A DNA stretch of 35,340 nt. It comes from a virus. The notes below the pieces were generated by a model. It saw nothing but the letters and a program-made list of their open reading frames with translations. It was not told where the DNA came from and ran no database searches. The translations under genes and the position numbers were made by a program. The stretch is taken from positions 1-35,340 of IMG/VR virus record IMGVR_UViG_3300012002_000305; one strand, 5' to 3'. How positions within the stretch are numbered: the first letter of the stretch is position 1; each line of letters starts with the position of its first letter. Positions 17,697 through 18,791 of this stretch are shown here, piece by piece.

Positions 17697-18791
17697 CTAT
17701 TGGTCGTTGATAGTCGAGGCCTGAACACTTGGCTCTGATAGCTCGCTTTCTTCAACAAACTCAACAAGCTCATCATAGGTTGCTGGTACATCTATTGTAC
17801 CATTTGCAATCTGTGTATAGATCTCTTCGTAATCAACTACACTAAACTCCCTAAAGCGTGAAGACTCCATTGGAAGTCCGACACCGCCTTCGGTAGCTGT
17901 CAATGTAACTGTTTCACCGCCAGGAAATTCGTCTGCGTAGAACTCTCCAAGAAACCGTTGTGCTGTTTCTCCAAGATCCTTCATTGCGCTAGTCAAAACA
18001 CGATCACTTTGTTCAGCTTGGTCAACATCAACACCGATCATCCATGTATCTTGATTTTCCGCTGCTTCCATTACGCTTAGACCAGCTCCACCTGCTGCTG
18101 CAAAAATGACCTCGGTACCTTCAGAATACCATGTATTCGCCAATGCTACAACATCTCGTCCTGGAGCAAATGTACCAAGATACTTATATCGATCATCTGG
18201 GAACGCTATTTCTACTCCAAGTTCATTCGCTGCATAGTGTGCTCCAGCAACAAATCCAACCCCAAAGCGAACAACTGCTGGAACAGCGATACCACCTACA
18301 TAACCAAGTTCGCGAAAGCCATCCTGCACGGCAGCATACCCTGCTAGGAATCCGGACTCTTCCTCAGCGTAAAAGACCGAAACAGTATTGTCACCAACCA
18401 CTGCATTGCCGTCCTCATCTCGAGGAACACCATCGCTAAGAAGAAAAGCGACATCAGGATGTGTCTGCTGCGATTCATAGATTGCAGTTTCAAACATAAA
18501 TCCTGGTGCAACCACAAACTCAGCGCCACCCTGTACGGCAAGGTCAATAGCGTTGATATATGCTGAATCAGATACCTCTATTGGTCGATAATAGCGGTAT
18601 GTCACATCAGTCTCTTCAGCGTACGCTGCAACTCCTTCCCAAATCCCTTGGTTAAACGATTCATCATCGATCTCACCAGAGTCGGTGACCATTGCGACCT
18701 CGTACGCTTGCCCCTCACTCTCGTAAAAGCATCCTCCAAGAACGCTTGCAAACAAGAGCGTAATTAAGCCCATAGCTAAAACTCTTTTCAT
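17697..18791 (-). CDS. BMP/PnrA-family nucleoside-binding lipoprotein
   Basis: 364 aa. Lipoprotein signal: basic start, hydrophobic core and lipobox LGGC with Cys21. The mature protein is a periplasmic-binding fold with the family landmarks EVAMVTDSGEIDDESFNQG, then GAEFVVAPGFMFE, ESGFLAGYAA, EVIFAAAGGAGLSVMEAA and IGVDVDQ. Relatives (TmpC/PnrA, Med) bind purine nucleosides for an ABC importer. No permease or ATPase gene is nearby, so it would have to work with the host transporter or act at the surface. Strong SD AGGAGG. Highly unusual cargo for a phage. Confidence 0.93.
   Translation of the reverse strand: MKRVLAMGLITLLFASVLGGCFYESEGQAYEVAMVTDSGEIDDESFNQGIWEGVAAYAEETDVTYRYYRPIEVSDSAYINAIDLAVQGGAEFVVAPGFMFETAIYESQQTHPDVAFLLSDGVPRDEDGNAVVGDNTVSVFYAEEESGFLAGYAAVQDGFRELGYVGGIAVPAVVRFGVGFVAGAHYAANELGVEIAFPDDRYKYLGTFAPGRDVVALANTWYSEGTEVIFAAAGGAGLSVMEAAENQDTWMIGVDVDQAEQSDRVLTSAMKDLGETAQRFLGEFYADEFPGGETVTLTATEGGVGLPMESSRFREFSVVDYEEIYTQIANGTIDVPATYDELVEFVEESELSEPSVQASTINDQ

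Follow-up and report, generated by a model that had tools for sequence, protein, structure and literature searches.

We found that a phage contig encodes a BMP/PnrA-type lipoprotein, and it is probable (about 0.6 by our estimate) that this captured nucleoside-binding protein acts as an auxiliary metabolic gene product that loads the nucleoside importer of the host for dNTP synthesis. The window, i.e., the whole stretch of DNA analyzed, is an entire virus record of 35,340 bases and is a fragment of a large phage. The assignment of the protein to the BMP/PnrA-type lipoproteins is supported by its sequence, predicted fold, pocket residues, phylogeny and position on a phage contig.

The open reading frame fills positions 17697-18791 exactly on the minus strand, whereas the plus strand is riddled with stop codons there, and its orientation is that of almost all phage genes in the window. 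The gene and the signals surrounding it are:

17697..18791, minus strand: predicted nucleoside-binding lipoprotein of the BMP/PnrA family, 364 aa (ORF list; Pfam Bmp, E = 5.6e-48; PDB relative TmpC/PnrA, E = 7.7e-33; AlphaFold model and Foldseek)
18729..18791, minus strand: signal peptide, residues 1-21, with lipobox V17-L18-G19-G20-C21 (sequence inspection)
18803-18798, minus strand: Shine-Dalgarno sequence AGGAGG with a 6-nt spacer to the ATG (sequence)
18868..18941, minus strand: tRNA-Glu, 76 bp upstream of the BMP gene, which sits within a tRNA cluster
17664..17684, minus strand: perfect 9-bp GC-rich hairpin directly past the BMP stop codon (fold -16.2 kcal/mol; no T-run, hence no U-run in the transcript)

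The protein begins with MKRVLAMGLITLLFASVLGGC, which we read as a short, lipobox-containing signal peptide. Residues V17 to C21 agree with the general lipobox pattern, so that the signal peptide and lipobox cysteine of the BMP/PnrA family are present as judged by inspection. The lipobox reads LLLSC in the spirochaete homologues L044-L047 and is absent in L033. The BMP landmarks TDSGEIDD-SFNQ, RF176, GVD255 and SAMK271 were all identified. The original prediction of a phage-encoded BMP lipoprotein with a lipobox, these landmarks and a strong Shine-Dalgarno sequence was thereby confirmed, the gene lying on the minus strand. It had also attributed promoter elements to the gene itself. This part is unsupported, since sigma-70-like sites around the gene were no more common than in shuffled sequences (2 observed compared to 3.6 ± 1.9, i.e., chance level) and none fell within the 76 bp that separate the gene from tRNA-Glu. 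No riboswitch near the gene reached the Rfam thresholds, and the only Rfam elements beside it were tRNAs. The hairpin past the stop codon is a possible transcript 3' end; the terminator search did not flag it. The interval between the Dps-like gene and the BMP gene (17360-17660, minus strand) contains T-loop-like sequence, GGTTCGAATCC, for which no tRNA was called and which perhaps represents decayed or unrecognised tRNA genes.

Pfam assigned the protein to one family only, Bmp (PF02608), with 163.9 bits compared to a cut-off of 24.1. The match extends from residue 31 to 337 and covers model positions 2-299 of 301, and the curated cut-off is thus exceeded across the whole domain. Among proteins of solved structure, Treponema pallidum TmpC/PnrA, pneumococcal PnrA, Lbp, BmpA and BmpD were the closest in sequence. 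The AlphaFold model (pLDDT 88.8, pTM 0.86; 18-sequence alignment) has the two-domain fold of periplasmic binding proteins, and its best Foldseek matches were all nucleoside-bound PnrA, TmpC, Lbp and BmpD structures (E 6e-28 to 5e-24), well clear of AtzT at E = 1e-18. The nearest predicted viral structures (BFVD) matched poorly, and PHROGs contained no family for the protein.

The residues that hold the nucleoside in BmpA, BmpD and TmpC have been published (PMC13325309; PMC7093131), and they align to D37-S38, F46-N47, D120, F176, D255 and K271 of the phage protein. In an alignment of 22 sequences F46, N47 and D120 were invariant, while D37, F176, D255 and K271 were at least 90% conserved. The protein hence retains a pocket of the nucleoside type, with two stacking phenylalanines (F46 and F176), the ribose-binding residues D120, D255 and K271 and the loop residue D37. 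In form (TDSG-ID) and length, the loop by which base preference is tuned equals that of TmpC. From sequence and model we infer that a nucleoside is the ligand. The protein had been described as purine-nucleoside-binding; the nucleoside part agrees with pocket and fold, while "purine" is too narrow, because the ligands of close homologues with such a pocket are purines, pyrimidines or both (PMC13325309).

Another BMP-type ligand, such as riboflavin, B6 or some other cofactor, possibly tied to NAD salvage by the phage, is unlikely. The BMP family does include the riboflavin-binding RfuA and a B6-type model, and the window encodes a nicotinamidase and a nicotinate phosphoribosyltransferase, but the nucleoside-bound structures lie far above RfuA in Foldseek and every published nucleoside-pocket residue is retained. 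RfuA ranked 22nd (E = 2e-17, compared to 6e-28 for PnrA), and a receptor of the RfuA type was rejected as the closest fold. The B6-type model was the sole NCBIfam hit and scored 35.5 bits compared to a cut-off of 400.

Compared to PnrA/TmpC (Tp0319) of T. pallidum and PnrA of Streptococcus pneumoniae, the phage protein shares the fold, the lipoprotein signal, the aromatic sandwich and the ribose-binding Asp and Lys residues. It is, however, only about 30% identical to them, is encoded by a phage and has no ATPase or permease genes accompanying it in the window. The surrounding genes relevant to phage identity and dNTP supply are:

30513..32717, minus strand: terminase large subunit (TerL), a phage hallmark (tblastn to annotated phage terminases, 23-24% identity over up to 93%, E to 3e-24)
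16877..17347, minus strand: Dps/ferritin-like neighbour of the BMP gene (Pfam Ferritin, E = 9.6e-24)
11942..14053, minus strand: class II (B12-type) ribonucleotide reductase (RNR), RTPR-like (NCBIfam RTPR, E = 9e-62, below the cut-off of that model)
4539..5327, minus strand: flavin-dependent thymidylate synthase ThyX (Pfam Thy1, E = 3.5e-55; NCBIfam thyX above cut-off)
1073..1549, minus strand: thioredoxin (Pfam Thioredoxin, E = 1.8e-24)

A DNA ligase and 31 tRNA/tmRNA genes are also encoded. The viral relatives of the RNR were mostly 52-66% identical to it, with one at 39% and that of Microcystis phage Mel-JY01 at 56%. The BMP gene lies within the tRNA/Dps cluster at a distance of 3.6 kb from the RNR, a looser linkage than in the other phage lineages described below. 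We found no ABC ATPase or permease in the 35-kb window by tblastn with spirochaete ATPase and permease queries, and the fragment thus does not contain a complete BMP-type nucleoside ABC importer operon. With TerL, the tRNA and tmRNA genes and no ABC genes, the contig is genuinely of phage origin and carries the receptor gene alone, in the manner of PstS. A permease could be encoded outside the 35-kb fragment.

The best cellular relatives of the phage protein were spirochaetal. Proteins from two MAGs were 64-66% identical to it, and those from genomes of the same order about 60-64%. Phylogenetic analysis placed the phage protein as sister to the spirochaetal BMPs (SH-aLRT 98) on a separate long branch (0.64). 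Genes for an ABC ATPase and a permease come after BMP in 13 of the 14 related cellular loci. The remaining locus (L032) was considered as a cellular lone BMP without an ATPase; this was rejected, as the C-terminal part of the second permease, at 62% identity, is retained right behind BMP and marks an operon remnant or an assembly gap. The spirochaete relatives L029 and L055-L062 carry the BMP operon. In L029 and L055-L058, where it runs BMP-ATPase-permease-permease, the receptor is 60-64% identical to the phage protein, whereas the phage window has the receptor gene only.

Window DNA outside BMP (ThyX and tRNAs) matched all 46 spirochaete-order genomes at an E threshold of 0.01, compared to 2 of 44 clostridial genomes, mostly via BMP itself, in a control run at the stricter E of 1e-10. 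No protospacer-like short near-perfect hits between window DNA and the 46 spirochaete genomes were found among the matches listed. The host is likely, but not proven, to be a spirochaete, and the host lineage suggested by DNA similarity encodes the matching permease.

A passenger host gene, an assembly chimera or a recent accidental capture without a role would also place the closest relatives in cells and the viral ones further away. Such an origin would be very surprising here. Phage tRNAs on the same strand flank the gene, and its GC3 of 0.34 falls at the lower limit of what the other phage genes examined show (0.34-0.47), whereas GC content is 51-58% in the loci of its cellular relatives. 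Frame and pocket have been kept intact despite the long separate branch, and the tree contains repeated changes to or from the phage state (below).

The original prediction held that phages rarely carry transporter-binding proteins. This was too strong, as cyanophages carry PstS (PMC10987575) and BMP was found to recur in viral contigs. When viral contigs were scanned with one protein at a time, either the window BMP or the neighbouring Dps, no relatives came up, and viral relatives were recovered only when an alignment was used as query, which gave 13 viral records with BMP. Twelve of these lacked an ABC ATPase over their whole length, which was up to 105 kb. The remaining one (L081) contains the full operon and was rejected as a phage BMP, being probably host DNA; on the same grounds we set aside OR846589, listed as an Enterococcus 'phage', since it carries a whole BMP operon.

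An RNR or thymidine kinase was located within 8 kb of BMP in 10 of the 12 lone-BMP viral records and in none of the 14 cellular loci (Fisher p = 1e-5, a value inflated by kinship). These viral records are few in number, some being near-duplicates of one another, and collapse to about five lineages. BMP is directly or nearly directly behind nrdB-nrdA in six of the records (L078, L079, L080, L082, L083 and L090), and behind RNR-thioredoxin-nrdB, with or without thymidine kinase, in L087 and L088. It adjoins thymidine kinase in L084 and thioredoxin in L086, where a class II RNR is found 5.4 kb upstream. The edge or short contigs L085 and L089 had no dNTP gene near BMP. Lactobacillus phage Ldl1 likewise has a lone BMP near a nucleoside deoxyribosyltransferase and a deoxynucleoside kinase.

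The AU test ruled against a tree in which all phage BMPs form one clade (p = 1e-5). Judging by the well-supported branches, the phage state must have changed six times or more, through gains or losses. BMP is present in just 4 of the 80 loci in which a related class I RNR was found, and is therefore optional cargo; the virus records related to the window by RNR or TerL had none. In two records with the same RNR protein as L083, namely L100 and L104, a complete phosphonate importer replaces the PBP_like_2 and BMP genes of L083. This importer, located directly downstream of the RNR (13133-16635 of L100, and the corresponding stretch of L104), consists of a receptor, an ATPase and two permeases. 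We tentatively suggest, at somewhat less than even odds, that several unrelated phage lineages separately took the receptor of a nucleoside importer and joined it to RNR or thymidine kinase in a module that scavenges external nucleosides into phage DNA, and that the slot downstream of RNR in one lineage takes exchangeable transporter cargo, i.e., a nucleoside receptor, a phosphate-type receptor or a complete phosphonate importer.

A receptor without a permease would look alike if the phage used it to sequester nucleosides or to jam the BMP permease of the host, for instance to exclude toxic nucleoside analogues, without aiding import. We consider this distinctly improbable, as pocket and fold are preserved as in functional receptors, and both the company of RNR and thymidine kinase in other phages and the whole phosphonate importer in the equivalent slot of a close relative of one of them argue for uptake.

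Still less probable is a role at the cell surface, in which a nucleoside-sensing lipoprotein would bring about superinfection exclusion or control the entry of other DNA elements. The lipidation pattern is present, and there is one distant precedent in mycoplasma P48, a nucleoside-binding ABC receptor lipoprotein of which nucleoside binding, and not transport, is needed for ICE acquisition (PMC12892991). P48 favours entry, however, and does not block it. No exclusion-like gene was noticed beside BMP, and such a role would leave the linkage to RNR and thymidine kinase in other phages unaccounted for. Of the two functions proposed originally, the block of superinfection was hence left without supporting evidence. 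The other, feeding of nucleosides to DNA synthesis, fits the lone receptor, the canonical operon that the probable host lineage carries, and the recurrent position close to RNR or thymidine kinase in other phages.

In the reading that we favour, supply of a receptor to the host importer, the phage protein would be exported after infection, receive a lipid at Cys21 and so be held in the host envelope. It would there clasp (deoxy)nucleosides between its two domains and pass them to the BMP-type ABC ATPase/permease of the host, such as the spirochaetes with the closest homologues encode beside their own receptor. The imported nucleosides, together with the phage RNR, ThyX and thioredoxin, would then support phage DNA synthesis. 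Docking to the host permease, timing and benefit are what we infer for the phage protein from these comparisons.

Phage-borne ABC receptors are already known in the form of PstS, and the function of phage pstS has been reported as experimentally validated (PMC10987575). Cyanophage PstS, a phosphate-binding protein, is likewise an ABC receptor that presumably relies on the host permease, but it differs from the phage BMP in ligand class, protein family and host, and the role suggested here is by analogy. The BMP gene of Ldl1 (LDL_056) is also known, annotated as 'ATP binding cassette transporter'. It resembles the gene studied here in being a lone BMP, from an isolated phage and in a nucleoside-salvage neighbourhood, but its product is only about 26% identical and is placed elsewhere in the tree. 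Our searches of the open-licence literature yielded no description of phage BMP proteins as a group, which does not imply that none exists.

The dNTP supply of phages is usually ascribed to degradation of host DNA and to nucleotide enzymes of the phage. A nucleoside receptor repeatedly found in the vicinity of RNR and thymidine kinase would add extracellular uptake to this supply, and would extend the precedent of PstS from phosphate to nucleosides. It also suggests that phages may take just the part of a transporter that determines specificity. While a single BMP gene would be ordinary as an auxiliary metabolic gene, its repeated pairing with RNR or thymidine kinase gives a clear prediction that can be tested by ligand binding and by stimulation of the host importer.

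Two of the viral relatives showed further peculiarities. The BMP of L078 (10001-11647) has a C-terminal extension of about 200 residues that is absent from the other relatives, and in L086, a 92-kb virus record, cytochrome b6/petB-like and petD/cytochrome c-like proteins are encoded at 11160-12620, right behind BMP.

Several other genes of the window, all on the minus strand, were also observed. A HisKA_2/HWE-type sensor histidine kinase is encoded at 14272-15576, with no partner regulator identified. The nicotinate phosphoribosyltransferase and nicotinamidase genes adjoin each other at 25819-27640, and both products scored above their NCBIfam cut-offs; this NAD-salvage pair could counter an NAD-depleting defence. 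A Thg1-like protein (25100-25804), a cyclic-phosphate-processing receiver domain (4129-4515), a Ro60/TROVE protein (6746-8329) and an Rv2179c-like exoribonuclease (28248-28835) were identified as well, and together with the approximately 30 tRNA genes they suggest an RNA/tRNA repair kit.
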